Positions 67 to 64,000 of a stretch of DNA of 64,000 bases are shown here, one piece after another. The first letter of the stretch is position 1. Each line of letters begins with the position of its first letter. The translations under genes and the position numbers were made by a program. This DNA comes from Paratrimastix pyriformis (Eukaryota; Preaxostyla; Paratrimastigidae), in NCBI GenBank assembly GCA_027972325.1, contig JAPMOS010000008.1:744001-808000 (forward strand), given 5' to 3'. The notes below the pieces were generated by a model that was not told the DNA's origin, ran no database searches, and saw nothing but the letters and a program-made list of their open reading frames with translations.

Positions 67-2789
67 CCGCTGTATTTTGCGGATGTCTGCGCAGGTCCTG
101 GTGGGTTCACGGAGTACCTGTGCTGGCGGACCAAGGGGTCGGCCGTCGGGTGGGGCTTCACCCTCCGAGGCCCCAACGACTTCAAGTTCGCGTGCCCTCC
201 CCCCCTCACCCCCTCACCCAAAATGGTGCCCATCGCGCGGGTGGGCTGTGGGGTGGTGGGAGCTGGGTCGAGAGGACGGGCGTGACGGTGCCATCGGGCT
301 GGAGGGCGGAGCTGCCGTGGCCGTGGCCGTGGCTGTGGTGGGCGTGCTGACGTCTGTGCGGGGGGCCTTGCGGGGCTGCAGGCTGGAGAAGTTCAACAAG
401 CAGTCGCCCCACCACAACTTCCACCCCTACTACGGCCCTCACGACGATGGTCAGCCCTCCGGCCCCTCCCCCCCATCCTCGCCCCTTCTCGCCCTCCAGG
501 CGGCTCTGCTTGCTCACAGGTTTCGGGGTGGCGCGTCTGTTGGCATGCGGGCGGGCGGGCGGGCGGGCGGGCGGGCGGGCGGGCGGGCGGGGGCAGGCGA
601 CGTGACCAACCCCGACAACGTGAGCGGCTTCCTGGGGCTGATCGAGCAGCACCGGCCGCAGGGGCTGGACCTCTTCGTGGCCGACGGGGGCTTCAGCACG
701 GAGGGCCAGGAGAACCGCCAGGAGCTGGTCATGCGCCAGCTCATCCTCTGCCAGTTCCTCATCGGCCTGGGCGTCCTCAGGCAGGGTCCGCCGCCACTGC
801 CCAGCCCGTCCCCACTGGGCTGACCTCGGCGGGTCGGATGATGGACAGGGGGCAGCTTCGTGTGCAAGATCTTCGACAACTACCTGCCCTACACGGTGGA
901 GCTGCTCTTCATGATGGGGCTCCACTTCGCCTCGGTCACCGTCATGAAGCCCCTCACCAGTCGCCCCGCCAACTCCGAGCGGTCCGCCAGGCCCCTCCCC
1001 CTCTCTCCACCCCACCCACGCGCTTTGTGGGAGCCTCTCCCCGTTCGTCCACCACCTGATGTCCCCTGGGTGGCGCGGGGCGCGATGCTGGCCACCTTTT
1101 AGGTACCTGGTGGGGCAAGGCCTGCTGCGGCGGAGCCCGCCCGTGGTGGGTTACATGCGCCACGTCAATGGCATCTTCAACGACCTCCAGGCGGCCATCA
1201 GGGCAAACGTCGACACGGCCCGCCTCACCCCACGGTCTGGCGCACATGTCCCGCCACGCCCCGCCGCCACCCCTCTGCCATCGGCCGGGATCGCTCACTG
1301 GGATCCGGGGGCCATCGCTGCCGTGGCGGGGTCTGATGGCGCGGGGCAGGGAGCCCGTGCACCTGTTCCCCCCGGAGGCCATCGGGGGCGGCTTCCTCGA
1401 GTACATCCGGCGGACCAACATCCGCATCGCCCAGCAGCAGCGGGCCGCCCTGGAGGAGCTCATCAAGTACATCCGCGACCCGTCCGTCCCGCCCGCCCGC
1501 CCAGCCCGCCAGGCGCCGAGCCCCGCCCATCGGGACGTTCGACTTGACCCCACGCTGCCGCTGGCTGCGGGATGTGTGTATGCGTGTGGCGACACAGGAC
1601 GCTCCAGCCGGTCCAGCAGGCGACCATCCAGGAAGACTGCTACCAGATGTGGGGCCTGCCCGTCTGCAGGCCACCCCACCCCCTCTCTGCCTCCCTGCCG
1701 ATCGTGGCCCCATCGCCCGACCTGACCTGACCTGACCTGACCTGACCTGACCTGACCTGACCTGACCTGACCTGACCTGACCCGACCCGACCCGACCCGA
1801 CCCTACCCGACCTGACCCGACCTGACCTGACCCGACCTGACTTGACATGGTCTTTTTCTTGTTCATTTGGCGTGGACACTGCGGCAGCCCCTCCGCCGCA
1901 ACCAGAGGGCGGCCATCGCACCGCCACCCTCGGCACGGCCCCCTCCGCCAGCCACCTCGACCGGCCCGCCGGCCACGGAGGGCCGCCCGCAGGACGGCCG
2001 GAGCAGCATGTACCGGGGCGACAACCCGTACGACGGCCCCTCGCCCTTCGCGCCCCCCGTCCAGCCCCCGGACATCTCCGCCGGCGCGGCCGCCGTGGAA
2101 TCGCCCGCCCCCACGCCCTCCCACCCGTCTCCCCAGCAGCCGCCCCCGTCGCAGCCCAAGCCGCGCCCGGCCCCCCCAAAGCTGCTCCAGCTCAACTCGA
2201 AGGCCCTCGAGGAGGCCGCGAAGCGGGCCGCGGCCGTCAACGAGCCCGCCAAGCCGCCCCCAGTCGAGCCCATGACCCAGAGCCTCAACCTGGCCCTCGA
2301 GGGCATCGGCCGGCACGCCCGCAACCCCACCATCAACGAGGCCGAGCCATCAAGCTCCCCGCCGCGCTCCGGTAAGCGCGCCCGGGTGGAGAAGCCCCAA
2401 CCCCAATGGGGCCAGCCTCAGCCCCCCCAGGCCCAGGCCCAGGCCGTGACCGCTCAGCAGCAGCAGATGCTGATGGGCCAGCTGACGGCCCCGCAGATGC
2501 AGATGCTCACCCCCCAGCAGCAGCAGCAGCAGCAACTCTTCCAGCAGCAATTCGCACAGCAGCAATTCGCACTGCAACAACCACAACCACAACAGCCCGC
2601 ACAGCAGCGGGGGATGTCTGTGGTGCCGATCATGACCGCCCCCACGGCCGTCCGGGCCGCGCCCGGCTCGGCAACAGTCGCTCCCCCGGCCTCGCCGGCC
2701 TCCCTGAAAGCCGGGCCCCCTGTGGCTCTGCCGGGCCAGAAGAAGAAGGTCATCGTCGACGACGACGACGGGGACAGCGACGAGGCCCC

Positions 2790-2824
<35 letters not shown>

Positions 2825-2901
2825 CCGCCCAGCAGCAGCAGCAGCAGCAACAGCTCGCCCAGCAGCAACTCGCCCAGCAGCAGATGCGGATGCTTGCCAT
2901 G

Positions 2902-2932
<31 letters not shown>

Positions 2933-3675
2933 TGGGCCCGGGGGTGGGGGGGCCCAAGTTCCCGGCCCTGTCCCAGCAGCCGGGGATGGGGGGCATGCCG
3001 CCCATGGGGGGCGTCATCATGGGGGGGATGCAGGTCCGCACGGGCGCCTCGATGCCGCCTGGCGGGGTGCAGCCGTACGCCATGTCCGCTCCGGGTCAGT
3101 GGAGGCCCTCGCCTCTGCAGCCGCAGCTGCAGCCCGCCGGGGGCGAGGAGGACGAGGAGGACGAGGAGGAGGACGAGGAGCCCCTCCAGCAGCAACCTCC
3201 ACGGGCCGCCTTCCCGTACAACTACCCCGGCCAGCCCCAGGCCGCCTTCCGCCCGGGGGGCTTCCCTGCGCCGGCGCCCATGTACAACCCGGCCATGGGG
3301 CCCCTCCCCGGCCAGATGATGTCCCCCGGGGCGGTCCCCCCTCAGGCCCTGCCGGGCGGTCCGCGGCCCCTCTACCAGCCCCACTTTTTGGCCGCTGGGG
3401 TACCGCCCCCGGCTGGGCTCGCCGGCGTCCCTCCTCCGGCCGGCCTGCGCCCCGTCACGCTGGGCGCGGCCCCCCTCATGCCGGCCTCCCCCATGGCCAT
3501 GCCCCCTGGCGCGGCGCCCCGCCCCCCGGGTGCTGCCCCATTGCCACCCGGGTTGGCCGGTGGCCCTCCGGCCATCGCCCCGGGTGGCGGGTTTTTGCTG
3601 CCCCCGGGAATGGCCCAGCCCAGCGTCCCGGTGCCCCCTGGTGCTCGCCCCGTGGTGATGATGCCCCCTCATTAA
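67..3675 (+). CDS. CMTR1: mRNA cap1 2'-O-ribose methyltransferase, 3' part (5' end outside window)
   Basis: FtsJ/RrmJ-type AdoMet-dependent enzyme that methylates the 2'-O of the first transcribed nucleotide of capped mRNA, in the nucleus. Exons 67-185, 382-449, 597-785, 849-981, 1103-1234, 1350-1481, 1598-1661, 1888-3675, all phase-consistent; bases 1-66 are the end of an intron. Motif [16 protein letters not shown] and LRGPNDFK lie in the first visible exon, [16 protein letters not shown] carries the catalytic Asp, GGSFVCKIF the catalytic Lys, and [16 protein letters not shown] follows. The N-terminal part with the first catalytic Lys is not in the window. After the methyltransferase and a helical region ending in CYQMWGLP comes an exon of 596 codons, rich in Gln, Pro and Met with runs of Q and E/D, which metazoan CMTR1 lacks. 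The WW domain of animal CMTR1 is not seen. Family call is secure; the role of the tail is unknown. Confidence 0.9.
1717..1843 (+). repeat. (CCTGA)n intronic pentanucleotide array
   Basis: Tandem CCTGA units drifting to CCCGA at the 3' part, filling the middle of the CMTR1 intron 1662-1887. It has no coding role; the CMTR1 frame resumes at 1888. Confidence 0.9.
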
Positions 3676-16399: not shown

Positions 16400-16435
<36 letters not shown>

Positions 16436-19400
16436 TAGCCGACAACCGTGCCGAGCTCCGGGTGCTCAACGGGCTGGGCCCCATCCTGGGCACCCTGCGG
16501 GCGAGCGAGGACCTGGAGACCCAGCGGGCGGCGATGGGGGCCCTGATCAACCTCTCGGTCAACGCCAAGAACAAGGCCGAGCTGCGGGCCCTGGGCGGGC
16601 TGCAGCTGGTGGGGGCCCTCTTCCAGGAGACCCCCGACCCCGAGCTGCGCCGGTACGGGGTGCGCACCCTGTGCAACCTGGCCCTGAACGAGGAGAACAA
16701 GCTCGAGTTCGCCCAGCTGGGCATCGTGCCCGTCCTGGTGCGGGCCCTGGGCCACGAGGACAGCGCCATCTTCGTCTACGCCCTGCGGACCCTCTCCTAC
16801 CTGGCCACCCAGCCGGCCTGCCTGCAGGCCCTGGGCGAGTGCGGCATGGCGGGCCGCCTGGTGGGCCTGCTGGGCAAGTCCATCCCGCTGGAGTCCCTGC
16901 GCGACTGCGCCACCACCCTGGCTCTGCTGGCCGCCCGGCCCGAGCAGGCCGTCGAGCTGCACCAGGCCCGGGCCCTGGCCCCCGTGGTGCGCGTCCTGGA
17001 GACGTGCCTCGAGCAGGTCACCGCCCTGTCGGCCCCCGGCGCCGCCGCCCCCGAGACGGCGCCCCAGCAGCCCCCCGGCAGCCCCCAATCGGCCTCCGCT
17101 GCGGCCGCGGCCGCCGGACCAGCCTCCGCATCGGGGGCCGGGGCCGGGGCCGGGGCGGCCAAGCAGCAGCAGCGTGTGGGCATGATGCTGACCGTCCTGC
17201 AGAGCCTCTTCGCGGCCCTGCGGGCCCTGCTGGCCAGCCCGCTGACCCTCCGCGCGGCCACCCCGGCGGCGCCCGAGCACAACCCCGACGTGGCCGTCAT
17301 CACGGACATGCTCCAGCGCGAGAGCCGCGCCGAGCCCGGGGCCTCCCCCAAGGCGCCCGCCAACTACCTGGAGGCCCTGGTGCGGCTGCTCCTCGACACG
17401 ACCCACGCCCTGGCCGGCCGCTTCGTCGCCCTGCAGAGCGGGCCCGCCCCCCGGCAGCCCGCCGAGGGTCCCGAGAGCCCCGCGGGCGCCCTCCGGCCGG
17501 CGATGCCCAACACGCCGCCCCCCGACGGTCCGCCCTCCCGCGACCCGCCCCTGCCCCTCCCTCCCTCCCTCCCTCCATCCCATCCTGAATGGAGGATTCC
17601 CTTCAGGGCAGAAGCCAACAGCCCCCCGCACCAGCAGCATCCATTCATCATTATGCGATCTCTCCTGCCCTCCAGCCCTGCGCGGGGAGGGCCTGCCCAG
17701 CAGCATGGGGCTGCTCCGCATCCGGACGCCCACCCCGGACGTCCGCGGCCGGACGGGCGGCGCCCCGGGGCCCGACGGGGGCGAGCAGACCTTGGTCGTG
17801 GCCATGCTCCCCCGCTCCCCACAACGGGACATCGTTCTCAGGTCCGCCAGCGCCCCTCCCCACACGCACCTCGGCCCCTCGGCCGCCTCTGGACCTCATT
17901 GTCGGCGCGCCTTCGGTTCTCGGGTGCAGCGCCCTCGAGTGCTTCCTGATCCTGGTCGACGAGGGCCGCCAGTCGGGGCCCCTGCGCGACCAGATCGCGG
18001 CCATGGCCGCGGCCCAGGCGGCCCAGCAGGAGAGCCACCACGAGGTGCTGCTGGCCGAGTTCGACCGCCTCCGGCAGGCCCTCGCCCGCGAGAAGGAGGC
18101 CGCCTCGACCCGCGAGCTGGCCCAGATCGAGGAGCGCGAGCGGGCCCTGCCCCCGCCCGGCTTCTCGAGCGGCCTGCTGGCCGACCTGGCCTGCTGCCTC
18201 TTCGCGGGCAAGCCCACCCAGGCCGCCCCCGAGGGGGACCTGCCCCTGGCCCTGTGCGCCCTCAACTGCCTCCACTTCCTGGCGGCCCGGGGCCCCTCGA
18301 TGGCCCAGCGGGCCCTGGCCCAGCCCGCCCTGCTGCCCGCCGTGCTGCCCTACCTTTCCCCGGCCGACCTCGGGGCCGACATCATCGCCGCGCCCCCCGC
18401 GCCCGCTGCCCGCCCCGCCTCGGCTGCCGGCAACCCCGAGTCACCGGCCAGTGCTGCCGCGGCTGCGGCTCCGGGTGGTGGTGCCGGGCCCAGCAGCCTG
18501 CAGGCCCTGGTGGGCACGGCGGCCGAACCGACGGCCCTGGGGGCGCTGGTCCGGTGCGGGGCCATCCGGGTGGTGCAGCTGCTGAGCATGCTGCCCGAGG
18601 CCGAACGGACCCTGCTGATGCCCTCCGTCCTGCAGCCCGTCCTGGGCCTCCTCTCGGACTGCGCCGCCTACGGGGCGGCCCACCCCGCCCCGGCCGAGCT
18701 GCTGCCGCCCCCGCCGCCCGACCAGCCCCTGATGGCCGGCCTGCCGGGCACCCTGACGCCCCCGGGGACCCTGATCTGGGACCTGCTCACCGCGGTCGGC
18801 AGCCCCGCCCGGGCCCTGCAGCCCGTCGAGATGCAGCACGTCCTCTGGGAGACCGCCCGGCGGGCCTCAGTCACCCTGGCCAACGCCTGCTCGGGCCCCC
18901 TGGCCCAGGACGCCTTCCATGACCCCCAGATCCACGGGGTGGGGGCCCTGATCAAGTCGGTGCGCTCCGAGACGGACCCCATCGCCCGCCGCGAGGTGCT
19001 CCACGTGCTGCGGGCCCTGGCGACGGCCTCGGCCCCCATCCGGGAGGACATCCGCCAGTGGGGCGGGGTGGGGCCCCTGGTGGAGTGCCTCCGCACGGCC
19101 CGGGCCGACCCGGCCTCGATCAAGTACGTCATGCGGTGCCTGACGGTCCTCTCGGCCACCGCCGAGAACCGCCAGGTGATCGTCCAGGGCCAGGCCCTGC
19201 CCACCATCGTCGAGCTCATCGCCGCCCCGGCCCTGGAGCACGACCTGCGCACGGGGGCCCTGGGGGTGCTCATCAACCTGGCCCTGTCGGGCTCCAACAA
19301 GGCCCTCATCCGCGAGCAGGGCGGCCTGCCGCCCCTCGTCGGGCTGCTCCAGGATTCCGTCGGCCGCCTCGAGGCCGCTGAGACGCCCGGGGCCCAGCAG

Positions 19401-22801: not shown

Positions 22802-25800
22802 ATGGCAACACCAGACAAAATTGCACAGCAGCGGCGTGACTTTGAGTCTGCCCTGGCCAACACGATTTCCCGGCTGCACACACTTGCTTCCCCCACTGGG
22901 ACCGATGTGAGTGCCATCACTGCTTACGTGTCGACCCTTCAATCCACAAATTCTCTGGCTTTGCCCGATTCGAACTGGAAAGATATTTTGGTTTCCCAGT
23001 TCAATAATTTTTGTCATCGTGTGACCGATGAGGTTGTGAAGCAGGGTATCTTGGCCGACCAGACCAAGTCCGACGATTCTGTTCTGCAAGATATTACACA
23101 AGTCTGTCTACATTGAATATAAACATTCAGATCGGCCCCCTATTTTTTTTTGGTTGGCGATAGGTTTGGGGTAAATTCGATAAGATCCTGAGCCTCTTCA
23201 AATTCGATGAGTCTTTTGTTCGCCCTCGTGCTGCTGATGTTTTCTATAAGGTCTGTGCTGTGAGGGCCAGGGAACTGACCCCTCCCGTTCCCTCCCAGGG
23301 CCTGACCTCGAGCCCCCGGTGGGCCACCGCCCAAGCGTCGCTGCTGCCCGGCGGCACCATTGGGACCTCCGTCACGGATATGCTGACCAAGCTGCAGAGC
23401 CTCCAGACCCGGTTCAAGACCTCCTTCCCGGGCTACGTCGAGCCCGCCGCCCCCGCCGACTCGGGCGCCCCCGCCGGGGACGCCACCACCGCCCCCGCCG
23501 CCAGCTCCACCGGCACCGGCACCGCCCCCGCCCCCGCCCCCGCCCCCGCTGCCACCACCACCACCGGCACCAGCCCCGAGGCCATCGAGGATGGCCCCTA
23601 CGTGAGCGAGGCCGATGCGGAGTTCGCCGAGAACACCACCAGCATCGTCCGGGTGGGCAACGCCCCCACCAGCAACGACGCTAACGTCTCGGCCGGGACC
23701 GGCACCGGGACCGGGGCCAACGACGGCTACACCAGCTCCTACGGGGGCGGCTACGGCTACTCGTCGTACGGCTCGGACTGGAACAAGCCCAAGAAGCGCG
23801 CCGCCCGGTCGTTCGCCGGCCTGCAGAACCAGGGCGCCACCTGCTACATGAACTCCCTCCTGCAGACCCTCTTCATGACCCCCGGTCCGCCCACGCACGC
23901 CCACGACCGATCCTGCTGGGTGGGGTGGCCCCAAGAGGTCGAATGGGCAGGGCTTTCCGCCATCGTGGGGCGCATTTCACTGGTGCGCTTCGCCTGGGGT
24001 TTGGGTGTGGGGGCCGCGGCTCGGGGCCTGGGCAGAGTTCCGGTCGATGCTGTACTCCTTCCGGCTGGACCGGACCCAGAGCAACCCCGAGATGAACATC
24101 CCCTACCAGCTCCAGCGCCTCTTCGCCCGGCTGCAGTGCGGCGAGCGGCCCGCCTATGAGACCAAGGACCTCACGCACTCCTTCAACTGGACCGTCCGTC
24201 CTGCCCGCCCCCCTCCGCCTTCCTGCCCCCCTCCGCCTTCCTGCCCCCCTCCGCCTTCCTGCCCCCCTCCGCCTTCCTGCCCCCCTCCGCCTTCCTGCCC
24301 CCCTCCGCCTTCCTGCCCCCCTCCGCCTTCCTGCCCCCCTCCGCCTTCCTGCCCCCTTCCTGCCCCCGGCGGCCTCCTCCTGACTGGCATCGGGCTGTGC
24401 TGTGCTGTGCTGTGGGGCTGCTGCGCTGGGCGCGCCGGTGGGGGGCTGTCTTGACAGGGGGCGGAGGCCTTCGAGCAGCACGACATCCAGGAGCTCAACC
24501 GGGTGCTCTTCGACGCGCTGGAGCACGCCTTCCGCAACAACGGCCAGGAGGACAACAGCAAGTTCGCCGACCGGCTCTACCGGGGCCGCCAACGGCACGA
24601 GATCATCTGCCAGGAGTGCCACACCGTCCACGGGCGCACCGAGGACTTCTACGACATCGGCCTGCAGGTGCAGAACGTGGGCGAGGACCTGGCGGGGGCC
24701 CTGCAGAAGTACCAGGCGGTCGAGATGCTCAACGGGGACAACCAGTACACCTGCGAGCACTGCGCCCGCAAGTGCGACGCCACCCTGGGCTACCGGCTGG
24801 TCGAGCTGCCCTACCTGCTGACCATCCAGCTGAAGCGGTTCGACTTCAACTACGAGACCATGCAGCGGGTCAAGCTCGACGACATGTTCCGCTTCCCGGT
24901 CCGCATCGACATGGCCCCCTTCGTGGCGCCCCCCGAGGCCGGCGCCCCCGCCGCGGCCCAGGAGTACGACCTCTTCGCGGTGCTCATCCACTCGGGCGGC
25001 GCCATGGGCGGCCACTACTACGCCTACGTGCGCTCCTTCGAGGTCCGCCGCCCCGCCCCCCCCCCCCCCCCTGCCCGCCATCCCATCGTTGCGCCGCCTG
25101 GGGGGGGGGGCGCTCTGGTGGGGCTCTCTCGGCGCTCCATGGCCGCCCCTCGCCGCCCCTCACCTGGGCTGGCGTTGGGCTTGGGTGGCGGGCAGCTGAA
25201 CAAGTGGTTCGAGTTCAACGACTCGACCGTGACGGAGATCAAGGAGGCCGACATCTCCAAGACCTTCGGCTCCAGCCCCCGGGCCGCCTCCGACTCGTAC
25301 TACAGCAGCAGCTACTACTGTCCGCCCCACACGTCCCCTCGCCTGCTGTTGCTCGGCCCCGCCCGCTCCCGCTCCCGCTCCCGCTCCTTGCCTCTCCGTC
25401 GGCTGACCGGCGCTCCGACTCAACTGGGCTTCGCTGCTCTGCCGGGCTTGGGGGCTGGGCTTGGGGGGCTGGGATCGGGGCAGCCTCGTACTACTCGGGC
25501 CACTCTGCGACGGCCTACATGCTGGTCTACCGGCGGGTGGACCCGGCCCGGAACGTGATGGCCGTGCCCGACACGGAGATCCCCATCGGGGTCAAGGAGG
25601 AGGTCGAGGAGGACAACCGCAAGCTGACCGGCGAGCTGGCCGAGTGGGAGGGCACCAAGGACAACGTCACCGTCAAGGTGCTCTACCCGCAGCGCCACGG
25701 GGCCCAGTACTCGGTCGAGTTCAACCGGACCCGCAGCACCCAGGAGCTCTTCGACCAGCTCTACGAGGAGGTCGTCCTGGGCAAGACCCCCAAGAAGGCC

Positions 25801-28385
25801 AAGAAGGACAAGGAGGCCGACCCCAAGAAGGACCCCGCAGCCGCAGCCGCCCCCACGGCCGATGCCTCCGCCGGCCCCGCCGCCGCCGCCGCCGGCCCCG
25901 CAGCTGGCCCCGCAGCCGCCGATGCCTCCGCCTCCCCGGCAGCCGGGGCCGCGGCGACGCCGGCGCCCGAGGAGGAGGACGAGGAGGAGGAGCGTCTGGT
26001 GCGGCCCGAGCGGACCGGGCCGGCGCCCTACATCCCCAGCCGGGAGCACATCCGCATGCGGGTCTGCAGCAGCACCTACTACCAGGTGCCCGGCGAGGTG
26101 ATCGCCCCCTCGGCGACGCCCCTGTCCCACTACAGCTCGGTCGTCTCGGCCTACGCGGCCGTCCTGCTGGAGCACAAGCAGCCCGGGGCCGAGTGGGCCC
26201 CCTACGACCCGGCCAAGATGCTCATCCGGGTGGAGGTGCTCAACCCGCCCCCCGTGCCCATGTCCACCGACCCCATGAACCCGCCCCCGACCCCACCGCC
26301 CCCACCGCCCCCACCGCCCCCACCGCCCCCACCGCCCCTTCGCACATCTGGTTGCTGACTGTGAACTGGGGGTGGCGCCTGGCCTGGCGGCTGCCGCAGA
26401 TGCTGGACTTCACCGAGCCGTACAGCGTCTACGTGCCCCGGACGGCCACGGTGGGGGCCCTCCGCCAGGCCATCGCCGACACGGTCTGCCCTCGCCTCGC
26501 CTCCCTCGCATCCCCGCATCCCCGCATCCCCCTCCCATCGCATCCCCCTCGCCTCGCATCCCCTCGGCTCGCCTCTCCCCGTGTGGTGGGACATGGACCT
26601 GACCCATGGCTCCTGCTGCCGCCTCCCCAGACGGGCGTGCCTCTGGCTGAGATGCTGGTGCTGCGGTGCGAGTCGTACCGGGACGCGGAGCCCTTCATCG
26701 ACGACGCCAAGGAGCTCAGCTACCACCTGTACGTCTACGAGGGCTCCACCCTGCGGGTCGAGCGGCTCCCGGACCCGCTCCACTGCCACTCGCGCATCAT
26801 CGCCTGGCACCGGCTCACCCGGAACTACATCACGGTCACCTTCAACAAGCCCGCCTCCAAGACGGAGAAGCTCCGCCTGCGGCTGGACAAGAACACCACC
26901 CTGCAGGCCTTCAAGGCCAAGATCGCCCCCATGATCGGCCGCCCCGACCCGGCCTCCTTCCACCTGCTGCGCTCCTCGTACTACGGCGTCTCGGTGCTGA
27001 AGGACGAGACCCTGTCGCTGTACATGGCCGGCATCGGGGACAACAGCGAGCTGATCGTCAAGGACGGCGCCCCCAAGGGCACCAGCGGCATCTCGATCAA
27101 CTTCACCCTCTACCAGCCCAACGTGGCCTCGGCCGTCCCGGCAACCCCGACGCCCACCCCGACCCCGGCCCCGACCCCCGCCGCCACCCCTGCCGCCACC
27201 CCCGCCTCGGAGGCGGCCCCCGCGGCCCCGGCGCCCGACGCGGTCTCGCCGGCCCCCTCGGCCACCCCGACCCCGACCCCGGCCCCCACCCCGGCCACCC
27301 CTGCGATCAGCTACCACGAGGACTTCGTGACGCTGTCCAAGGTGGAGGTCAACGTGGCCATGACGGCGCCCCAGGTCAAGGAGCTCATCCTCGAGAAGTG
27401 TCCGTCCCTCCCTCCCGCCCTCCCTCCCTGCCTCGCCACCCACAGGACCCTACATACCCCCCCCCCCCCCCCCCCCCCCCGCGCTCCTCTTGACCATGGG
27501 ATGGGACCTTCTTCCTTGGGGGCTGTGCGACTGTGCAGGCACGCACCCCGATCTGGATGCGCTGCTGGGGCCCGTGCGGCCCGTGCCTGCGGATGTGATG
27601 GCCGCGGCCAAGGCCCGACTGCGGCTGCAGGAGAAGAAGTACTACCACGGCTGCGGCCGGGTGCTGCGCGACACGGACAACATGCGGTCGTACTACATCT
27701 ACGACGGCTGCAAGATGGCCGTCGAGGTGCTGCCCGCCCCCGAGCACCTGGCCGCCGACGACCTGGTGGTGCGCGAGCAGCGCTGGGACCCGGCCACCCA
27801 GGCGCTGGGCCCCATGGGGACGGTGGTCCTCAAGGGCACCTCCACCCGGGCCGACATGGTGGCCCAGCTGGCCCGCACCCACGGCATCGAGGCCGACCAG
27901 ATCACCCTCTGGCAGCCCTACGAGTTCGACCTGGCCGACGTGCACCTCCCCGGCAAGTCCGCACACGCCCCCGCACACGCCACCCCCGCCCACCACCCCT
28001 CACCCACCACCCTCACCCCGCTCACACGCTTTCTGGCCCCCGTCTGGCGGGCCTGTCGGTGCCCAGGTGGGACAGCGAGATCCTGAAGAGCAACCCGGGG
28101 GCCGTGGGCGGGTACTACTACGGCCAGGTGTACTACTACGGCTTCCGGCCCATCGAGGGGGACGTCGTCGTGTGGAAGGACGCCCGGCTGGCCGACCGGG
28201 AGGTCAAGGGGGCCAAGGTGGCCCGCTCGCAGCGCTACTACCACGCCGAGAAGTCCCTCAAGATCGACTACAACGCCGATCGCAAGACCCCCACCCCGGC
28301 CGCCACCCCGCGGGCGGCCCCCAGATCCCCGCCCCGGCCGCGGCCCCCGCAGCCGCCGCAGCCGCAGCCGCAGCCACCTCGGTGA
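22802..28385 (+). CDS. USP47: USP47-like ubiquitin-specific protease (1364 aa, 10 exons)
   Basis: Cysteine deubiquitinase of the USP47/UBP64E group, removing ubiquitin from substrate proteins; animal USP47 acts on DNA polymerase beta and beta-catenin. Exons 22802-23101, 23299-23884, 24036-24193, 24458-25042, 25196-25319, 25484-26235, 26400-26483, 26631-27399, 27539-27956, 28067-28385 sum to 4095 nt. The Cys box QNQGATCYMNSLLQTLFMTP puts the nucleophile at about residue 282; HDIQELNRVLFDALE, CEHCARKCDATLGYRLVELP and IQLKRFDFNYETM follow; the His box HSGGAMGGHYYAYV puts His at about residue 534. A ubiquitin-like C-terminal half follows, as in USP47, and total length matches the family. The N-terminal 100 residues are lower-GC and unrelated to known domains. 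The last codons are uncertain: another frame gives an Ala-rich tail ending at 28444 (see findings). The donor at 26236 (GTGCTC) is atypical and chosen by phase. Confidence 0.85.
24203..24362 (+). repeat. 18-bp intronic minisatellite
   Basis: About nine copies of an 18-bp unit (TCCTGCCCCCCTCCGCCT) within USP47-like intron 24194-24457. Confidence 0.9.
26282..26338 (+). repeat. (CCCCCACCG)n array in intron
   Basis: Short 9-bp tandem array inside the USP47-like intron 26236-26399. Confidence 0.75.
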
Positions 28386-29605: not shown

Positions 29606-30167
29606 TCATCGAGCGGGGGGCGCCTCGGACCAGGGCCGCTCCGAGGAGGCCGAGACAACCATCATCACCCGCCCCGACCGGCACCGCTCCGCCCCGCCCG
29701 GGGGCTGCTGACCCGGGGGCTGCTGGCCCGGGGGGGCCGCGGGACCGGCGACCGAGGAGGCCCTGGCCGAGAAGGCCGAGGGCTCGGGGGTGAAGTTGGA
29801 GCAGAAGTTGGTCCGGCTGAGGAAGGTCACCAGGGCGGGGCAGCTGCGCAGGCCCGTCCGCCGGGCGCAGAAGTTCAGCAGGTCCTGGAAGGCCTGCCGG
29901 CGCTCCTCCACCACGGCCGCGTCGAAGCGGCCTGGCCGCGGGCACGGGGAGAGCAGACAGTGTCAGGCAGCAATCCAAAGGCGGCGGGGCCAAAAGGGAA
30001 GCTGGGGCAGCTGGGGCAGCAGCGGGGGGCGGACCGAAGGGCTTCTTCTTGGGGAAGGGCGGCAGGCGGATGTGCTGCCGGGCGGCCAGCTCGGAGAGCT
30101 CCTGGTAGAGGGCCGCGAACTCGGTGTACCGCTTCTGGACCCTGTTCCCCTGGTGGGCCCGACGGGG

Positions 30168-30201
<34 letters not shown>

Positions 30202-30888: not shown

Positions 30889-30894
30889 TTCGAA

Positions 30895-36956: not shown

Positions 36957-39900
36957 ATGGAACAGGGCTCCGTGACAGCCACCGTCCCTTCGGCTTCTGC
37001 ACCCGTCCCACCTGCTCCTGCCACACAAATTCAAAATATTGTCCACGATTGCAAGAACGGCGATGGCAAATCCGGCCGTCTTGCTCTCGGCCAGGAGGGC
37101 TTGGCATGGAAGGACAAGGAGAGCGGTGCCGTTACAGTTTTTAACAAATCAGAGATACAATCTCTCGTTTGGACGCGCGGGATCAAGAGCTACCTGTGCA
37201 AACTCTTTATGAAAGGGGGCGCGACAGCCTCATTTCAGGGTATGAAGCGCGAGGTCTGAATCTGTTCGTGAAAACCACCGATTTTTTTTTCTTTTGGACA
37301 GCACGGCTCAGCACTCAAGACATTCTGCGAAATCGAAAGAATTGCTTTCAATTCGACCCAACATCACATCGCCGGCTGGAACTGGGGCGAGCTCGCTGCC
37401 GAGGGTCTGCTGCCTTCACCGTCACCTTCTGTTGATGGGTGCCATGGATCCTCATAGATGAGATTGTCTTCAACGCCGGTGGCCAGTCCATGTTCAGCCT
37501 GCCCTACGGGGCGGTGGCGCAAGCCACGGCCAACAAGAACGAGGTCATCCTCGAGCTCGCTCCCGAAGAAGGCGCAAACCCAGAGGACGACATGCTGACT
37601 CAACTCCGGTTCTACATCCCCGGCACCGATGAGGCCGGCATCGCCAAGTCCGAGGTCCGTCCGGCGCCGCCCAACCCGCGCCTTGAGGGGACTCGACAGG
37701 CGGATGGTCTGACGCGCCCGGGACGGCTTCCCGGCGGGACGGGTGGCTGGATGGCTGGATGGCTGGACGGGGTGTGCGTGCAGGCCGTCATGAAGCGCAT
37801 CATCGAGCGGGCCGACATCCAGACCGTCTCCGGAGACGTCATCACCACCTTCCGCGACCTGGCCTTCGTCGTGCCCCGGGGCCGGTACGACCTGAACCTG
37901 TACGGGAACATGCTCAACATGCACGGCAAGACGCACGACTTCCGGATCTCCTACAAGAGCATCTCCAAGATCTACGCCCTGCCCCGGCCCGACAAGCGCT
38001 CCATCTTCATCGTGGTCCGTCCCCCACCGCCGCCCATCCCCCGGCTGCTGCCGCCACCCGCTCCGGGTCTCCGCGCCACCGTCTCACCCCGCTTGGCACT
38101 CTGCGATGCTGGGCTCTGTGCCTGGGGGCGCGATGGCACTCTGCGGTTGTTTTCGGGCAGCTCGCCCTCGAGCCGCCTGTGCGGCAGGGGCAGACCCGCT
38201 ACCCGTACGTCATCATGCAGCTGGCCTCGGAGGAGCGCACCACCCTCGACATCAAGCTGTCCCCGTCTGCCCCGCCCCCCGCCCCTCCACGCTCGCATCT
38301 TGCCCTATCATCGCCCCTCTGCCCCTTCGGCAGACCGAGAGAGCGCGATGGACCCACAGGGGACACTGGACGTGCCGCCGCAGCTCCTCACATTCCTTGG
38401 GACTGGCGCGGGGGTTGTGGGTGCGGGTGGCGGCGCGGGGGTCAGGGAGGACCTGACCAAGTACAAGCTGCAGGCCCAGCTGCAGGGGGACACGATCACC
38501 CTGATGACCCGCCTGCTGCACTCGCTCACCGAGCGCAAGGTCACGACCCACTCCAAGTCCTTCTGGTCCGCCCTCGCACCCCCGCCCGCCCGCCCGCCCG
38601 CCCGCCCGCCCGCCCGCCCGCCCGCCCGCCCGCCCGCACCGTCCGTTTCCACGGTCGTCACCCCGGCGCGGGGCACGGGTCGGGGCTTGGCTGCAGCAAC
38701 GAAAACGAGCGCAACCCGGGTGCGGCCGCGGTGAAGTGCTCCTACAAGGCCAACGAGGGGCTGCTCTTCGTGCTGGAGCGGTCCTTCCTCTTCCTGCACA
38801 AGCCCACCCTCTGCCTCAAGTTCGACGAGATCACCGGCCTCGAGGTCCGCCGCCCCCGGACACAGCCCATGTCCCCGGGCACAGCCCATGCCCCCGCCCA
38901 TCCCATGCCCCCGCCCAGCCTGTGCCTCCCCGGCCCAGCCCGTGCCCCAGCCCATGCCCGGGCTCAGGGGCCGGACCATCTCGACGGGCGCGCCTGTCAC
39001 CACCTCGCTTGCGCCAGCCGTTCTTCCGTCCGATGCTGATCCACCATGCCGGGGTGGGCGGGGGCGGCGGGGTGCTGGGGGCGGGGGCTGCTGGGCGGGG
39101 GCTGCTGGGCGGGGGCAGTTCCACCGGGTGAGCTCGGACGGGGGCAGCCGCACCTTCGACCTGACCATCCACGTGCGGGGCAAGGAGGGCCACCTCGAGT
39201 TCACCAACATCCCCCGGGACGAGTACCCGCGCCTGTCGGACTTCCTCTGCGTCAAGAAGGGCATCAAGCTGCTCAACCAGGCCCAGATCAAGAAGGAGAA
39301 GGTCCGCACAGCCCCCGCATCGGTCCTGCTCTCCGACCCCATACCAGGCCCCCCGCCCCCGCTGTCGCATTTGGTGCTGAGCGATTCTGCGGGTTCCTCC
39401 CGGTCTGTCTGTGCGGCGGGGCGGGGCGCTCATCAGGCCCAGGCCGACTCGGCTGCTGCTGCGATGGCGGCCGGGAGCGGCTCCGAGTTCGCCAAGCAGC
39501 TGGCCCAGGCGGGCGGCGAGGACGAGGAGGAAGACGACGATTACAAGCCCGACGAGGAGGCCGCATCCTCGGGGCCCGATGAGGAGGAGGACGAGCACAA
39601 GGAGCACAAGGAACACACGGAACACACGGAACACACGGAACACAAGGAACACAAGGAGCACAAGGAGCACAAGGAGCGGAGGCCCATCCAGGACGATGAC
39701 CACGACGAGCACAGGGACGAGCCGGAGGGCCCGGCCCCCATCGTGCCCGAGGACGATGCCCGCCTGGCCCCGCCCAAGGCCCGCCTCCTCTAGCCTCGCC
39801 TCGCTCCTCTAGCCTCGCCTCGCTCCTCTAGCCTCGCCTCGCTCCTTTGCCTCGCCTCGCCCGCCCCAACCACGCCCGGCACCCGGCAGTCTGACGCGAC

Positions 39901-43483: not shown

Positions 43484-43558
43484 GGCCGCCGACAGGTCCG
43501 CCTGCACGCACACGCCCCCCCGGGACCACCACCAGCGCCCGCCCGTCCCGCCATGGCG

Positions 43559-43585
43559 TCACGGTGCCCGATGATACACGGCGCA

Positions 43586-43619
<34 letters not shown>

Positions 43620-46600
43620 GCAGAGGGCGCGGGCGATGCCGGCGAAGGGCGTGCGGGGGGCGTGGGACGGGCCTCGTCGCTCTTCATGAGGCTGGCCAGC
43701 AGCCCGAGCGGCCCGGGCTTGGCGGGGGCCCCGCTGTCCTCCTCAGGGGCGGCCGCCAGAGCGCGTGCGGTCCCCGCGGCGGGGGCGTCGCCCCGCTGGA
43801 CGGCGGCCATGAAGGCGGCCAGGGAGCGGTTGGCCTTGGCGATGCCCAGGTTGACGCGGGCCTTGTCGATGATGGCCGCCTGGTTGGGGCACAATCTTCA
43901 CCCCCGAGCCGGCCGTGGCCCCAGGGCGGCCCGGTCGCCCCCTCGGTGGCCCCCAGCCGGCTCGTCTGGGCCGGGCCGGGCCGGATGGCGGCCTGCTGAG
44001 CCAGGTGGCGGGGCAGGAAGGGCGAGGCGGGCCCCAGCGAGCTGGCCGGGTCCATGGGCAGCCCCAGGCCCTCGTCCCCATCCGCTGGCGGCACGGCGAT
44101 CCCCCCCCCCCCCCCCCCCGCCCCCCCCGGCAGCGGAGACAGTATGCGGCGTGTGTGAGTGTGAGGGCAATCGGTGAGGGGATGGAACGACCGCTGGCCC
44201 GCAAGCAAGCGGTTCCTTCGGGAGGGAGGGAGGGAGGGAGGGAGGGAGGGGAGGAGGAGGAGGGGGAGGAGGAGGAGGAGGAGGAGGAGGAGGAGGGGCG
44301 GCCGAGGTGGTGCAAGGGGGTCGGGGGAGGCCTCTGCGGACCGGCGAAGGAGGCCGCCAGGTTGCGGGAGGTGCCGGCCAGGGCGGGGGCGTCGGCCTTG
44401 GCGGCGCCCTGGCGGAGGGAGGCCAGCACCCCCACGAGGGGCGTGCTCGAGGTGGCCGCCAGGGCCACCAGCATCCGGCGCTTCTCCGAGGCCTCGGCCA
44501 TCCGCTGGGCCTGCGTACGGCTGATGTCGAAGTTGTGCTCGAAGCACCGCACCGCCTCTCCGTACTGGCCCTGCCGGTGCAGGATGGCCCCCAGGCTCGA
44601 GCAGGCCTCCCGCACCTGCACACGCACACGCACACACCACCGCGCGGGGGGCCCGAGGATGGCGGGGTGGATCAGGTCGGGCCGACCATGGGGCCGGACG
44701 GCCAGGCGAGCGCACGTGGGGTGTGCGTGTGGAGCAAAGGGACTGATCGTATGGGGTGTGTGTCTGTGTGTCTGTGTGCTGACGGGATGGGACGGGGTGC
44801 GTGTCCGACCTGGGCCGCGTGGATGCCGTCCATGTCGGCCATGTCGGACTCGTCCTTCTCCACCCGGGCCGCGGCCGCGTCGGCCACGTCCACCACGGCG
44901 GCCGGGCTGGCGTCCCCCTCCCCGGGGACGGAGGGGCCCTCCTTCGCCTCGGCTGCGAGCATGAGCATGAGCATGAGCATGAGCACGAGCACGAGCACCG
45001 GCGGGCAAGCGGATGCCGGATTCTCGGGGCAGCCGCCTCATGGGCGGGGCGACCTCGTCGCCAGGCTTTCCCGACCCGAACCCCAGACGGACCGCCGCCC
45101 CACAGGTCATGCGCGCATCCGAGACAGCACGGGGGCCAGGGGAGCGAGGGCAGCGGGCAGGAGGCGGACCGGGGTGGGAGGAGAGGGTCAGGTGGGTCTG
45201 CAGATACTTGATGGCGTTGGGGTAGTCGCCCAGGGCCTGGTGGGCCTTGGCCAGCGACTGGCAGGCCACCCCGGCGCCCGCCTCGTCCCGGCTGGCGATG
45301 CACATCTGCAGGTACTGCTTCTGGCACTGCAGGGCAGGGCAGGGCGGGGCAGGGCAGGGCAGGACGGGCCGGCCAGGGTGGATGGGCGGGCGGGCAGGAT
45401 GCGTGAGCTGGGCCGGGGGGGGGGGGGGGGGGGGGGGGTGCCGGGGCGGCACGGACCTCGATCGACTGGTGCAGGTCGCCCAGCTGCTCGTAGCACAGGC
45501 CCAGCCGGTGCAGGGCAAGCGCTGCGTCACACAGGTGCGCGTGGACGTTGAATGGAACCCCGGTTGCACCCGCCTACACGGGCACCCACACACCCGGACA
45601 CGGGCACCAGACACACACCCGGACACGGGCACCAGACACACACCCGAACATGGGCACCGGACACACAGAGACGCGCCAGCGGGGGCCAGGACGAACCCTC
45701 CTGGGGGGCGGTGGCCCTGTTGTGGTGTGCGGCCTGCTGGCACTTCTGGAGGTACTCGACGATCTTTGGCAGGGCCCCCCGGGCGGCCGTGGAGGAGGGC
45801 AGCCCGGCCGGCCCGGCCTCGGCCTGCAAGCGGGCCTCCTCGGCGGCTGTCAGCGGCTCGGGCGGGTTGAGGGCCTCCAGCATGCTCGCCATGGCCTCGT
45901 AGATCCGCACCAGGCACACCCGCCCGTTCATCACCACACCGTCCGGCGACTGTGCCGGGGGGCACACCCACCACCACCACCATCGCCACCGCGACCCGTC
46001 AACGGCAGCGGGGGCGGCGGCGGCTGGGGTCGGGGCGGCCCGCCGCGAGGCAAGGGGAGGGGACGGGCGGCGACGCGGACCTGGGCCACCTGGGCCCTGT
46101 GGAGGTGCTCCTCGTAGAAGTGCATGGCCTGCTCGAGCAGGTGCAGCAGCCGCGACTGGGTGGGCGACTGGGTGGGGGCCTTGCTGCTGGGGGCGGCCCC
46201 GGCCCCGTCGAGGTCGATCTCGTCGTGCCCCTCGGGCGACAGCGACGACAGCGACGAGGCCTGCTGCAGCTCGTACTGCTCGTAGGCGGCCCCGATGCTC
46301 AGGCTCACTTCAACCTGCCGGGCCGGGCCCAGACGGAAGGGCGAGGGGATGACGATCGGGGTCGTGGGAGACGGAGGGGCCGGACCTGATGGGTCATATT
46401 CCCGCTCTGTTGAGCAGTTTGATGGCACTTAGTGTGAAACCGAATTGCATTCACATAGTTGTTGCATCCCTCAAAGAACTGGGCAATGTTGCGATTGGCC
46501 ACAAAAACATCATCCAGCCGGCCTGCGGTGCGTCGAATTCGATGGGTGTCCAGCAAAGCGATTCCAGACCTTGGCGGGTTGCCATTTCTGCCTCGCAAAG

Positions 46601-51978: not shown

Positions 51979-52036
<58 letters not shown>

Positions 52037-56127: not shown

Positions 56128-56164
<37 letters not shown>

Positions 56165-59100
56165 ACGCACGCCCAGTGCCAGGAGCAGCTCGCCTCCTAC
56201 GAGGCCCACGAGCGAGTGGTGATTGTCCTCTCGGGGCTGCTCCACCGCGAGGGGGCCACGGGGGCCTTGACGCCCTACCTGCCCTTCATACTCGCGCACG
56301 CCTTGGCCATGCCCCACCGCCCGCTGCCCACCGTCAGCCTGTCTCCCTCCGACCCGGTCGTCTCGTCGGCGGGCTGGGCTGGCTCGCCTCCCCCGGCGGG
56401 TGCCCTTTCGGCGGATCCGATGGCGTCCGACCAGCAACAGCTACTGGCGGCAGGGCCCTCGGTGAGCGCCAGCCAGACCAACTTACTGCGTGCTCAGCGG
56501 TGGCTTCGCCTGGCCTGCGACGGCCTCGCGGCGGCCTGCCTGACCCTGGTGGGCGGCTCCCTGCCCAGGCCGGCCCGGCTCCTCGAGGGGACCGTCGCTG
56601 CCCGCGGAGGGGGTGGCCTCATGGGGTGGGTCGAAGCGGCCCTCGGGGCAGGCCCGGCCGCCCGAGCGGCTGCCCCGCTGGCCTTCCACTGGCTCGCCTG
56701 CTCCCAGGTCCGTCCCGTGCACTGCAAGACATCTCCTGTGATACCAGATCATGTGCGATGCTAGGAGGGACCTCTCCGCGCGATAGCCTGCATGCTGGCC
56801 GGAGCCCTGCGGCAGGCCCCCGCGGCGCAGCTGCAGGGAGCCTTGGTGGGGACCGTCCTCCGCTGGCTGGGCCATCCGCTGCGGTCCCTCCTCCGAGCCG
56901 ACCAGCTCCCCGATCGGGGCGCCCCCACGGCCTTCCACGACGGGGAGCAACGCGCCGCCTGCGCCATGAACACCATTCTCACGGTCCGCACAGGGAAAGC
57001 CCGCCTCTCAATGCTCTGTCACCCCAACAAGAACGCGTCATTCGCGGGGGCGAACAGAGTGCCGGGGCTGTAATATCGGGGGGGAGGGGGAGGGAGGGGG
57101 TTGTGGCGACGGACGCTTCCCGGTGGCGGGTTGGGGGCAGGGCGGTTTGTGATGCCATCGTCTGCACCGCTTGCATGTGCAGCCCATGGTCCGGGCGCTG
57201 CCTTTCGGCCAGCGCGCCCAAGCGGCCTCCTTCTTCTGGCTGGGCGTGGCCCTGCTCCACTCGGGCCAGGGTGGCCTCTACGGGGCCGCCCTCGGGCTCG
57301 TGGGGGCCTTCTTCGAGGACCCTCAGGGCGTGCCGTCACCTCAGGGCGACCCCGATATGCCTCCGGCCGCCTACTGGGCAGCCCTCATGGGGGCCTTTGG
57401 CCGACCTGACGTGCCCGAGACCGGGCGCGCCCCCCCGCAGTTTGGCGGCTCGCCGGCGGTGACAGGCGCCGAAGCAGCAACCCCGAGCTGGGGCTCCGTG
57501 CACAGGCACCCACAGCGCGCCCCGCCTTCTCCGCCCCAGACAGCGGGCAGTCGTGGCGCCCCTCCGGCCCCTGCGACTCACCCGGTCTTCTCCAAGCAGC
57601 AGCCCCCGCCGCCGTCCCCGATCCCCACCAAGCGCGGCTCGCGGCCCCCGCCACCCTTGCCGCCCACCACAGGGGTTGCCAGTGGGTCTCTTGCCTCGAT
57701 GGGGCCCCCACCCCAGCCCTTGCCGCCCCTCGGCAGCCCCAGCCCCCCGGTGGGAGCCCGGCCCAAGTCACCGACCCGCTTCAAGCGGGTGGCCACCGGC
57801 GACCCGTGGGGAAGCGGCGCCCCTTCAGGCGGCCCGACGGGCGGAGCGGGAAGCCCCCTGCTGGCGGCAACGGCCCAGGGGCCCGTCTGGATGGGTGCTG
57901 CCTCCTCGCGGGCGGGCGGGCGGCTCGGGCCCCTGGCCGCGGCCATGTTGGGCACCGCGCCCGGCATGGGCGCCTCCGCGGGCGCCCCGGAGGCGAAGCG
58001 CGGGCCTGATGGGGACAGCGAGGCCGCGTCCTTGGGCCGGGGCGGCTGGGAGGGCTTGCTGGGCCTTCTCGTGCCGGTCTGGTTGCGCCCCCTTCGGCAG
58101 GGAACCGACTCGGGTGGCCTTGAGGCTGCCGACTCGGCCTGACCTTGGACCATTGTATGGGCTGCTGGCGGGGGGTGCAGGCCCTGGTGCAGCTGGGCGA
58201 CGACCGGGCCCAGGTCGAGGGGCCCCTGAGCGGGCGCGCCACCGGCTTGCTGCTCCGCATCCTGGGCACGTGCCCCGACCCCGGTCCGCTTGGCCACGCC
58301 TCTGCCCACGCCTTGGCTCACTGAGCTGCCTGTCGGGCGGCGGCGCAGGTTTGGTGGATCCCACCGCGGTGGGTGCGGGCGCCCTTGACCGCGGGACTGC
58401 CCCGGAGGGTCAGACACCAACGAGCGGTGCGGCCCTGCTGGCCCTGATCTGCCTGCTGCCCAGCATCCTGGCCGACGACCGCGATGACCGAGCCCCCATC
58501 GACCAAGCCGTGCCCGTGGCCCCCACCCGACCGCGCGCCGTGTGGAAGCGGTGGGCCCGCCTGGCGGGCTTCGAGGGGCCGCTGCCGACGACCTGGCCGA
58601 CCCTGCCGGCCGCCGGAAAGGCAGCGGAACTCCCCGAGCTTGAATGGGAGGCCCTGGCACAGTGGATGTTCGCCGGCTTCATGCCCCGCCACGGCCTCGA
58701 GGCTGCAGGTCCGCCCGCCCCCGAACCACTCGCACGCTGGCCCCTGGTTTGGCGAGCTGGCGGCGTCATCTCTCTGGGCGTGACCTGGGCTCTGCGGGAT
58801 GGGGGTTGTGGCGTCCGGACAGCCCTCTCGGTGGTCCTGCTGCGCGGGGCATCGGCGCGCCACCAAGAGGCCCTCGGGTGGCTCTGGGCGGCCCTGTATG
58901 CCTCACCTGTGGGCGTCCAGGCTGCTCAGTGCACCCGCCCCATGGTCGAGGTCCGCCGCCACTCACGCCCGGCCGCCGCCGCCGCCGCCGCTCCCCCCCG
59001 CGCGCCCTTGTTCCCCGACTGACGCGCCCAACCTCGGGTCTCCCGGGTCCTGCACTTGCAGTATGTCAGCGGCTGCAGCCGGCCACTGTTCGAGCAGGGG

Positions 59101-60309: not shown

Positions 60310-60345
<36 letters not shown>

Positions 60346-63081: not shown

Positions 63082-63196
63082 TTCTCGTGGGCGGCGGTTG
63101 TGTTGGAGGCTCGCGTGGGCGTTCTCCACCGAATGCGTACGGTTTCTCTTTGACAGTATTCATGTCTCCCACACCCTCGGCGAGGCTGCTATTCGG
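63082..63196. promoter_or_regulatory. short spacer and promoter of the last gene
   Basis: 115 bp between the giant gene stop and the next ATG, low GC with T-rich runs. It must act both as 3' UTR and as promoter. Confidence 0.45.
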
Positions 63197-64000
63197 ATGG
63201 AAAACCCTTTTTGTTGTGATGATGAAAAAAAGGGAAGCGAGAGTCAGCCTTCACGCAACGAATCCGGAAGTGGAAAGGTTCAGCAATCTTCAACTTCAAC
63301 GCCAGCGACTCGGTCGATCGATGATACCAATACACTCTTCTCGGAGTCTCTCTTCACGGAGGTCACAAAAGCGGCCACCTTGGAAGTTTGTCTGGCAGCC
63401 CTGAACCCGGCCCTCGCCAAGATCGAGGCCATGTTCCATGTCACCACCGAAGGGGCCCCGGTCCCGCCCCAGTTCCTCGAGCCGCTTGCCCGGCGGTGGT
63501 GCGCCATCTGCGGGCCCTGGGCAGGCGGAGTCCTCCACTTCTTGGTGGCCGACCCATCGCCGTTGGCTCCGGGTCAGGTGGGGCCCGTGAGCAGCTGCGT
63601 GGGGGCGCTTGATCGGATCTCGACCAAAGTCGGGGCCGCCTCGGGCCGGGTCTGCCTCTGCCTCTGCCTCTGCCTCTGCCTCTGCCTCTGTCTCTGCTCT
63701 GCCTCTGCCTCTGCGATCGACTGACCCGACTCGGGGGCTGCGGCTGGGCCGGCCGGCGCAGGGTTTGATGCCGCTGGTGCCCTCGTCGGCCTCCGCCTGG
63801 GTTGGCCTCTTCACCGAGGTCTACAAGCGCCGCGGTCAGCTGGAGGCGACCCTGAGGCCCACCCTGCAGGCCCGCCACCTGCCATCGCCCTTCGAGCCGC
63901 CCCTCTCGTGCCCTCCTTCAAGGCTGCCTCCCTCCTGACACGTCCCCTCCACTCCCGCTCGTTCCAGGCCGCCTACATCCGAGCCCTGGGCAGCGGGCTG
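63197..64000 (+). CDS. unrecognised gene, 5' part (continues past window)
   Basis: First exon 63197-63628 (144 codons) starts MENPFCCDDEKKGS and is Ser/Thr-rich and low-GC, then helical (TKAATLEVCLAALNPALAKI, PQFLEPLARRWCAICG). Intron 63629-63761 (GTCGGG...GCAG) leads to exon 63762 onward (GLMPLVPSSASAWVGLFTE). The next acceptor is near 63967, before a stretch that reads AAYIRALGSGL. The donor pairing with it is unclear; GTCTAC at 63823 fits by phase. No family recognised. The hydrophobic helical pattern resembles the neighbouring giant gene, but I see no shared motif. Confidence 0.6.
63651..63715 (+). repeat. (CTCTGC)n hexamer array in intron
   Basis: About ten hexamer units inside intron 63629-63761. 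Confidence 0.9.

Follow-up and report, generated by a model that had tools for sequence, protein, structure and literature searches.

Introduction

How can introns be spliced when their 5' splice sites should hardly be readable by the U1 small nuclear RNA (snRNA)? The usual donor is GT-A/G-A-G, and its partner, the ACUUACC segment at the 5' end of U1, is usually regarded as fixed, because a change there should disrupt the splicing of thousands of introns in one stroke. The question is raised by a stretch of 64,000 nucleotides of the genome of Paratrimastix pyriformis (assembly GCA_027972325.1, contig JAPMOS010000008.1, bases 744001-808000), hereafter called the window. An initial annotation, made from the letters of the window alone, had placed about 95 introns there and described a donor class GTCCGY, with C at position +3 in 83 introns, T in 8, G in 4 and A in none. 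It had predicted that U1 carries a compensating change or, alternatively, that recognition has moved to U6, U5 or proteins. We report here that these are very probably U2-type GT-AG introns whose donors now follow the code G|GUC(n)G(U/C) and would be read by a U1 that changed along with it.

The Donor Consensus

The assembly that we analysed comprises 56.06 Mb in 495 contigs, one of which carries the window (C474; the C and L numbers are our own handles for contigs and loci). Introns were called with an unsupervised gene model, whose coding statistics were bootstrapped from long open frames, on the window and on 20 regions of 10 kb from elsewhere in the genome. In the flat version of this model, introns need only start with GT and end with AG, every donor and every acceptor is weighted alike, and no motif is supplied. 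All counts exclude introns shorter than 30 nt and duplicates between overlapping chunks. The gene models derive from GC-rich, gene-dense regions; the lower-GC regions are represented by the Prp8 and SNRNP27K genes, described below.

The motif was already visible in the first model pass, in which C occupied +3 in a fraction of 0.83 of the 36 usable introns. Once converged, the flat model called 208 distinct introns (30 nt or longer). The window contains 72 of them; the other 136 come from 12 of the 20 regions elsewhere, and the remaining 8 regions yielded none. At +3, these donors have C in 178 cases, G in 18, T in 12 and A in none. The counts are C 147, T 31, G 22 and A 8 at +4; G 158, C 32, T 17 and A 1 at +5; and C 120, T 49, G 32 and A 7 at +6. 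The last exonic base (-1) is G in 125 of the 208, GTCnG opens 149 introns, and the acceptor ends in CAG in 177. In the window, the flat model finds C at +3 in 58 of the 72 introns (G 8, T 6, A 0) and GTCCG in 39; with trained splice-site weights, 80 calls are made there, 3 of which were dropped as shorter than 30 nt, and the 77 retained have C at +3 in 65 (G 6, T 6, A 0) and GTCCG in 45.

Both window counts agree with the +3 tally of the initial annotation, and its 12 example donors all read GTCCG at the positions given; 7 of them are recovered by the flat model and 10 by the trained one, which misses 4504 and 10006. The class is real and non-canonical, and a model without any motif finds it both in the window and well outside it. 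In the sampled regions outside the window, C occupies +3 in 120 of the 136 introns.

Composition and the Place of +4

These introns are C-rich, and one could suppose that the preference is an artefact of their composition, added to a model that favours C-rich sequence after GT. Indeed, the intron background (measured from +11 to +40) is 57% C. At +4, where C reaches 147/208 (0.71) against a background of 0.572 (p = 8e-5), the information amounts to merely 0.09 bits. At +3, however, C in 178/208 clearly exceeds the same 0.572 (p = 2e-18), and it stays at 83-87% over all four intron-GC quartiles, being nearly equal in the lowest (83%) and in the highest (87%). The contrast is greater still at +5, with G in 76% of donors (158/208) against 19% in the background (0.189, p = 6e-71). 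Other dinucleotides placed in the donor role do not produce such a motif either: CT, GA, TC, AT, CA, GC and GG never exceed 0.24 bits between +3 and +8, versus 1.15 bits at +5 for GT, in a control whose content models were GT-trained; with TC and GG, the calls fall on the same GTCCG, shifted by one base. Composition is therefore rejected as the cause of +3 and +5, and we regard the artefact as extremely unlikely. Composition explains much, perhaps not all, of +4.

Because +4 carries little information, the class described as GTCCGY is better written GTCnGY: its GTC and its G at +5 hold, and its fixed C at +4 does not. The position is not free, however. The C excess looks larger when donors are compared with GT decoys inside introns (0.37 C at +4, below the 0.71 of the donors), so +4 looks weakly constrained, perhaps with a weak preference. 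Moreover, A is scarce there (8/208 against a background of 0.099, p = 0.0016), and the share of T drops as intron GC rises (lowest quartile 23%, highest 10%).

Junctions Placed by Homology

Junctions were also placed by protein homology. At the Prp8 locus (10 kb around the PROCN match), 16 exon pairs were picked by eye, and all frame-keeping, stop-free junctions within about 25-45 nt, with any dinucleotide (17,829 candidates), were scored with a hidden Markov model built from every third of 118 homologues. In 14 of the 16 introns, a GT-AG solution comes to within 0.5 bit of the top score obtained with any dinucleotide; near-ties arise because the junction can slide by a few bases. For introns 3 and 13, the deficit is 2.0 and 4.1 bits, and intron 13 may conceal a missed exon. 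The best GT-AG donors read GTYnG in all 16 cases, with G at +5 in 16/16 and C at +3 in 15 (T in 1); +4 is C in 11, T in 4 and G in 1, and +6 is T in 9 and C in 7. This result already speaks against composition as the full explanation. A lower-GC gene model seeded with Prp8 gave 10 introns, 9 of them with C at +3; as 4 are in a locus overlapping Prp8 itself, this model is not counted as independent evidence. In the SNRNP27K gene, a junction placed by eye reads AAAG|GTCGGG.

The same approach was applied to 11 introns of the window, 6 in an SSRP1-like gene and 5 in a USP47-like gene. The predicted GTC(C/T)G donor was the best GT-AG junction, with a usable score, in 8 of the 11. It trails the best unconstrained junction by no more than 1 bit in 6 of these 8, and by no more than 0.5 bit in 3. 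Judged by their sequence, the introns very probably belong to the major U2-type GT-AG class.

U1 snRNA Genes

The Rfam U1 covariance model finds 8 full-length U1 copies on 8 contigs, scoring 50.8-60.2 bits, the best of which covers model positions 1-166 (E 3.7e-13, 60.2 bits). All 8 genes found start with AUACAGACCUUG rather than the canonical AUACUUACCUG. Their shared start is ATACAGACCTTG (8/8), with GATCAC kept at nucleotides (nt) 28-33. In every copy, nt 5-6 are AG instead of UU, which gives ACAGACC instead of ACUUACC, and nt 11 is U, not G; the AG-type U1 found here is a AUACAGACC U1. The copies are identical over columns 1-58 and about 98% alike overall, and the pattern ATACNNACCTTGCTTGGCCAG hits the same 8 loci in the genome, with no other letter pair. 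The compensating U1 change predicted from the window thus exists. It is not the proposed RCGGAC: U1 has ACAGAC, so C at +3 is compensated and C at +4, which faces A5, is not.

Two features recur in the U1 copies. The U1-70K-type loop GAUCA is present in 8/8, and a CCATAA stands 58-59 nt upstream of all 8. A CCATAA-type element was found 50-66 nt upstream of 22/22 snRNA copies checked (U1, U2, U5 and U6, with U2 represented by 3 of its 10 matches; L001-L012, L033-L039, L047-L049), at 58-59 nt for U1 and U2, 50-52 nt for U5 and 65-66 nt for U6, and it is probably an snRNA promoter element. Given the loop and the upstream CCATAA, the U1 copies look like genuine genes. Of the 8 contigs that bear them, 4 were sampled for introns: GTC opens 57/60 introns on C24, 25/28 on C441 and 5/8 on C388, and C212 gave none. 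U1 and these introns therefore share contigs. One U1 copy (L003, 1501-1658) takes a multi-branched fold in silico, in which CAGAC of the 5' end pairs with GUUUG near an Sm-like site; such pairing in a protein-free fold may mean nothing.

Pairing between U1 and the Donors

In the register used here, U1 nt 6, 5, 4 and 3 stand opposite donor positions +3, +4, +5 and +6, respectively. The U of canonical U1 at nt 6 would pair with A at +3, which is present in 0/208 donors, while the observed G6 pairs with C at +3, present in 86% of donors versus 49% of GT decoys within 60 nt. With the register left free, the duplex energy is better with the observed than with the canonical U1 in 198/208 donors (mean -5.85 vs -2.72 kcal/mol). 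The 16 Prp8 donors give -7.85 kcal/mol with the observed U1 and -3.97 with the canonical one. Among the 16 possible letter pairs at nt 5-6, AG ranks 2/16 in telling donors from decoys. On the exonic side, A at -3 is found in 27% of donors and in 11% of decoys.

We propose the following course of recognition. In the U1 5' end AUACAGACCUU, C8 and A7 would keep their usual partners G+1 and U+2, and G6, in place of the former U, would pair with C+3, C4 with G+5 and A3 with U+6. A5 would lie opposite the weakly constrained +4, leaving the helix broken at this position, as in yeast; U6, with its ACAGAGA, would then take over the same donor after U1; since this RNA carries the same 7-mer as U1 nt 1-7, the G in its ACAGA offers C+3 a second partner. 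A GG at U1 nt 5-6 would give a mean of -9.6 kcal/mol, and an unpaired +4, as in yeast, may serve to keep the C-rich donor from binding U1 too tightly for release. From these sequences, we infer that the U1 genes found are expressed and functional, that U6 receives the donor from them, and that U1 and donors evolved jointly.

Evidence Weighing against a Changed U1

Several results count against this proposal of a U1 changed together with its donors. The first group concerns the pairing. Decoy GTs also favour the observed U1 (498/680), as C-rich sequence would; they gain less than the donors do (mean -3.83 vs -2.13 kcal/mol). A5 leaves C at +4 unpaired, and +4 is mostly unpaired in the sample. 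With G in place of A at U1 nt 5, donors and decoys would be told apart more clearly (area under the curve, AUC, 0.816 vs 0.766 with the A that is present), and over nt 3-6 the observed ACAG ranks 8/256.

The second group concerns the placement of introns. Three of the 11 homology-tested window introns fail to support the call: at 38566, homology favours another donor, the junction at 39302 scores too low to judge, and the one at 26254 is weak and reads GTGCCC. Over the 208 donors, -1G/+5G and +3C/+5G are positively associated (Fisher p = 1e-4 and 7e-9). This is unlike the usual behaviour of donors, whose positions show trade-offs in the part of the literature available to us (PMC10599564), for -1G/+5G in particular. 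Such positive associations imply that some deviant donors are probably misplaced introns, and the data suggest that the donors lacking these C and G bases include a share of misassigned introns.

The third group concerns U1 itself. The U1 scores (50.8-60.2 bits) fall under the Rfam gathering score of 69.5, and U1-C was not identified among the proteins, the only zf-U1 match resembling WBP4 best. Covariance scoring covered 41 of the 992 first-look U1 candidates; U11, U12, U4atac and U6atac were outside the searches, and an assembly of 495 contigs may be incomplete. A canonical U1 or a minor U11-like RNA could then be absent from the assembly or have been overlooked, and the AG-type U1 would serve a subclass of introns only. 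We give this a very small chance. Indeed, the exact-pattern search of the genome for a canonical U1 (ATACTTACCT, 14-20 bases, GATCA) returned no match, and all 8 covariance-model matches are of the AG type. Furthermore, with A at +3 in 0/208 donors, no donor class is left for a canonical U1 within the sample. U12-type introns, whose donor is RTATCCTT, were rejected on the same absence of A at +3, the minor snRNAs U11, U12, U4atac and U6atac not having been searched for.

Other Spliceosomal RNAs and Proteins

Unlike U1, the U2, U5 and U6 copies read look ordinary. U6 (4 copies, 96.7 bits) keeps GAUACAGAGA, with the motif GATACAGAGA in 4/4; its ACAGAGA box, which the initial annotation had proposed to read, is kept in all 4. 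U5 has the standard motif GCCTTTTAC in 7/7 copies, with the loop GCCUUUUAC, and U2 gives 10 matches, 3 of which were read and have GUAGUA (GTAGTA). We rejected a change in U6 or U5 as a candidate, and the suggestion that recognition had moved to such a changed RNA is not favoured, because the U6 and U5 copies read keep their canonical motifs. Two proteins of interest are also present: METTL16, as a Methyltransf_10 exon with CMCNPPFF, whose best Protein Data Bank match is annotated as the U6 A43 methyltransferase, and SNRNP27K, as an SNRNP27 domain with YMNRKG. Their loss, which is the kind of explanation given for Saccharomycotina yeasts, does not apply here and was rejected as the cause.

One could still suppose that donor choice passed from U1 to U6, U5 or proteins and that the change in U1 is neutral drift. 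The ACAGAGA box of U6 is also complementary to UCnGY, METTL16 and SNRNP27K are both there, and U1 A5 is mismatched to C at +4, all of which would suit this idea. Nevertheless, the new base in U1 is one that suits the new donor base, U6 and U5 have unaltered motifs in the copies read, and -3 A, -2 A and -1 G, the partners of U1 U11, U10 and C9, are enriched relative to decoy GTs. In addition, the U1 copies vary, and never in columns 1-58, which weakly suggests constraint, though recent duplication could explain it. Drift in a bypassed U1 hence appears improbable to us.

U1 nt 1-7 (L001-L008) form the same 7-mer, AUACAGA, as the ACAGA-box segment of U6 (L009-L012), and a bolder idea starts from this identity. 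U1 may have converged on U6; UCnGY would be read twice by identical probes, by U1 first and by U6 afterwards, and donors throughout an intron-rich genome would have moved to the C at +3 that suits both. One might even add that A5 of U1 becomes inosine, which would pair with C at +4 and explain why G fits best at nt 5. We hold this idea as tentative and rather unlikely; U1 and U6 already share AUAC and the A at nt 7, so that AG alone had to match and coincidence is possible.

Introns and Genes of the Window

Several genes of the window were recognised: an FtsJ-family methyltransferase (545-3658), the USP47-like protease (23380-28385), a PX-domain protein (29606-30494), an SRP72-like gene (31509-34191) and the SSRP1-like gene (37490-39793). 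In protein searches, the best SSRP1 match has 39% identity among the best 120 of 1037, and identity reaches 50% for USP47 among the best 120 of 4717 and 79% for Prp8 among the best 120 of 3051.

In the USP47-like gene (plus strand), the donor of intron 1 is GTCCGC at 23885..23890, the sole GT-AG among the 4 junctions that score less than 0.5 bit away from the unconstrained optimum. The donors of intron 2 (GTCCGT, 24194..24199) and intron 3 (GTCCGC, 25043..25048) are the best GT-AG junctions, with 114.9 vs 115.0 and 107.1 vs 107.3 bits for the best unconstrained; that of intron 4 (GTCCGC, 25320..25325) is also the best GT-AG, yet lies 8.7 bits under the best unconstrained. A further GTCCGT of this gene, at 27400..27405, is called by the flat and trained models. 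In the SSRP1-like gene (plus strand), the best GT-AG donors are GTCCGT at 37655..37660 for intron 1 (2.5 bits under the best unconstrained), GTCCGT at 38015..38020 for intron 2 (0.9 bit under), GTCTGC at 38265..38270 for intron 3 (0.7 bit under) and GTCCGC at 38845..38850 for intron 5 (0.6 bit under). The donor of intron 4 (GTCCGC, 38566..38571) is uncertain: both models call it, and homology favours GTCCTT at 38557 by 2.7 bits, which is the first of the three unsupported calls mentioned above.

The remaining donors were placed by the gene models. Both the flat and the trained model call GTCCGC at 786..791 and 982..987 in the FtsJ-family methyltransferase gene (the FtsJ match spans the first of these junctions), at 17528..17533 and, in the SRP72-like gene, at 33399..33404, all on the plus strand, and at 45164..45169 on the minus strand. 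The trained model alone calls GTCCGT at 56708..56713 and GTCCGC at 58284..58289, both on the plus strand.

As for the rest of the intron, the GC-rich introns (window introns, L013-L032, L046, L041) show no pyrimidine tract before the acceptor, C being about as frequent as G, and several introns of lower-GC genes, e.g., Prp8 and SNRNP27K, carry T/C-rich tracts. For the branch point, CTGAC and TGAC occur near the intron 3' end, and k-mer enrichment there was not convincing. Long simple repeats lie within predicted introns, with a CCTGA/CCCGA run at 1720-1850 of the window and a CTCCCTTTCTGCCTCTTGGG-like run at 9300-9700. At a larger scale, GC-rich intron-dense stretches (0.70-0.76: L013-L015, L025, L031) adjoin lower-GC ones (0.55-0.62: L017, L018, L021, L022, L026-L028, L030) that are nearly without model-predicted coding, an isochore-like layout whose contrast may be exaggerated by training the model on GC-rich genes.

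Significance

A component of splicing regarded as nearly fixed appears, from these sequences, to have been re-coded in this organism. If this is true, it amounts to a natural suppressor experiment at genome scale, in which U1 and donors changed together, and it means that the U1-donor code can be rewritten. It would also help to separate the demands of U1 on the donor (+3 and +5) from those of U6 and its N6-methyladenosine (m6A) at +4, METTL16 and SNRNP27K being retained. In practice, such a genome would be annotated wrongly by gene-finding programs that learned their donors from GTRAG sites.

Comparison with Known Systems

For GTCCG donors, or for a natural genome-wide switch of U1 nt 5-6, we found no description in the open-licence PubMed Central (PMC) literature, as far as the available parts of these papers go (including PMC10599564 and PMC6679479). 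What follows on other organisms likewise draws on the available parts of the reports cited. In Saccharomycotina, the donor changed across the whole lineage at +4, from A to U, and the ACAGA of U6 did not vary (Parker et al. 2023, PMC10581693). There, ACUUACC is reported as invariant wherever U1 was found, and the switch is tied to METTL16 and SNRNP27K (PMC10581693); here, on the contrary, U1 is changed and both proteins are present. In Cyanidioschyzon merolae, the U6 ACAGA box is altered at the base facing +4 (PMC10581693), and the species is reported to be without U1 (PMC6461891). The likeness is a natural change in an snRNA segment that faces the donor, in U6 there and in U1 here.

Other unusual lineages are reported to retain their U1. 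Fritillaria borealis has abandoned GT/AG genome-wide with a U1 5' end reported to be strictly preserved, the changes being in U2AF and m6A (Soo et al. 2026, PMC13326754), whereas in P. pyriformis GT-AG stays and U1 is changed. Giardia, also a divergent eukaryote, has an unusual donor and a U1 helix that contains a mismatch, and its U1 keeps ACUUAC (PMC3510501); the U1 5' end is also kept in a cryptophyte nucleomorph (PMC6461891). An altered U1 5' end is described in diplonemids, where one species has, next to a conserved U1, a variant carrying a run of C (PMC12621601); in P. pyriformis, the change is in each of the 8 copies found, and the donors fit it. Compared with the canonical U2-type spliceosome, in which U1 AUACUUACCUG reads AG|GURAGU, P. 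pyriformis shares the GT-AG ends, the U1-type covariance match, the GAUCAC loop, GUAGUA in U2, GCCUUUUAC in U5 and ACAGAGA in U6. It differs by AG rather than UU at U1 nt 5-6, by U rather than G at nt 11, and by donors with C at +3 and seldom A at +4.

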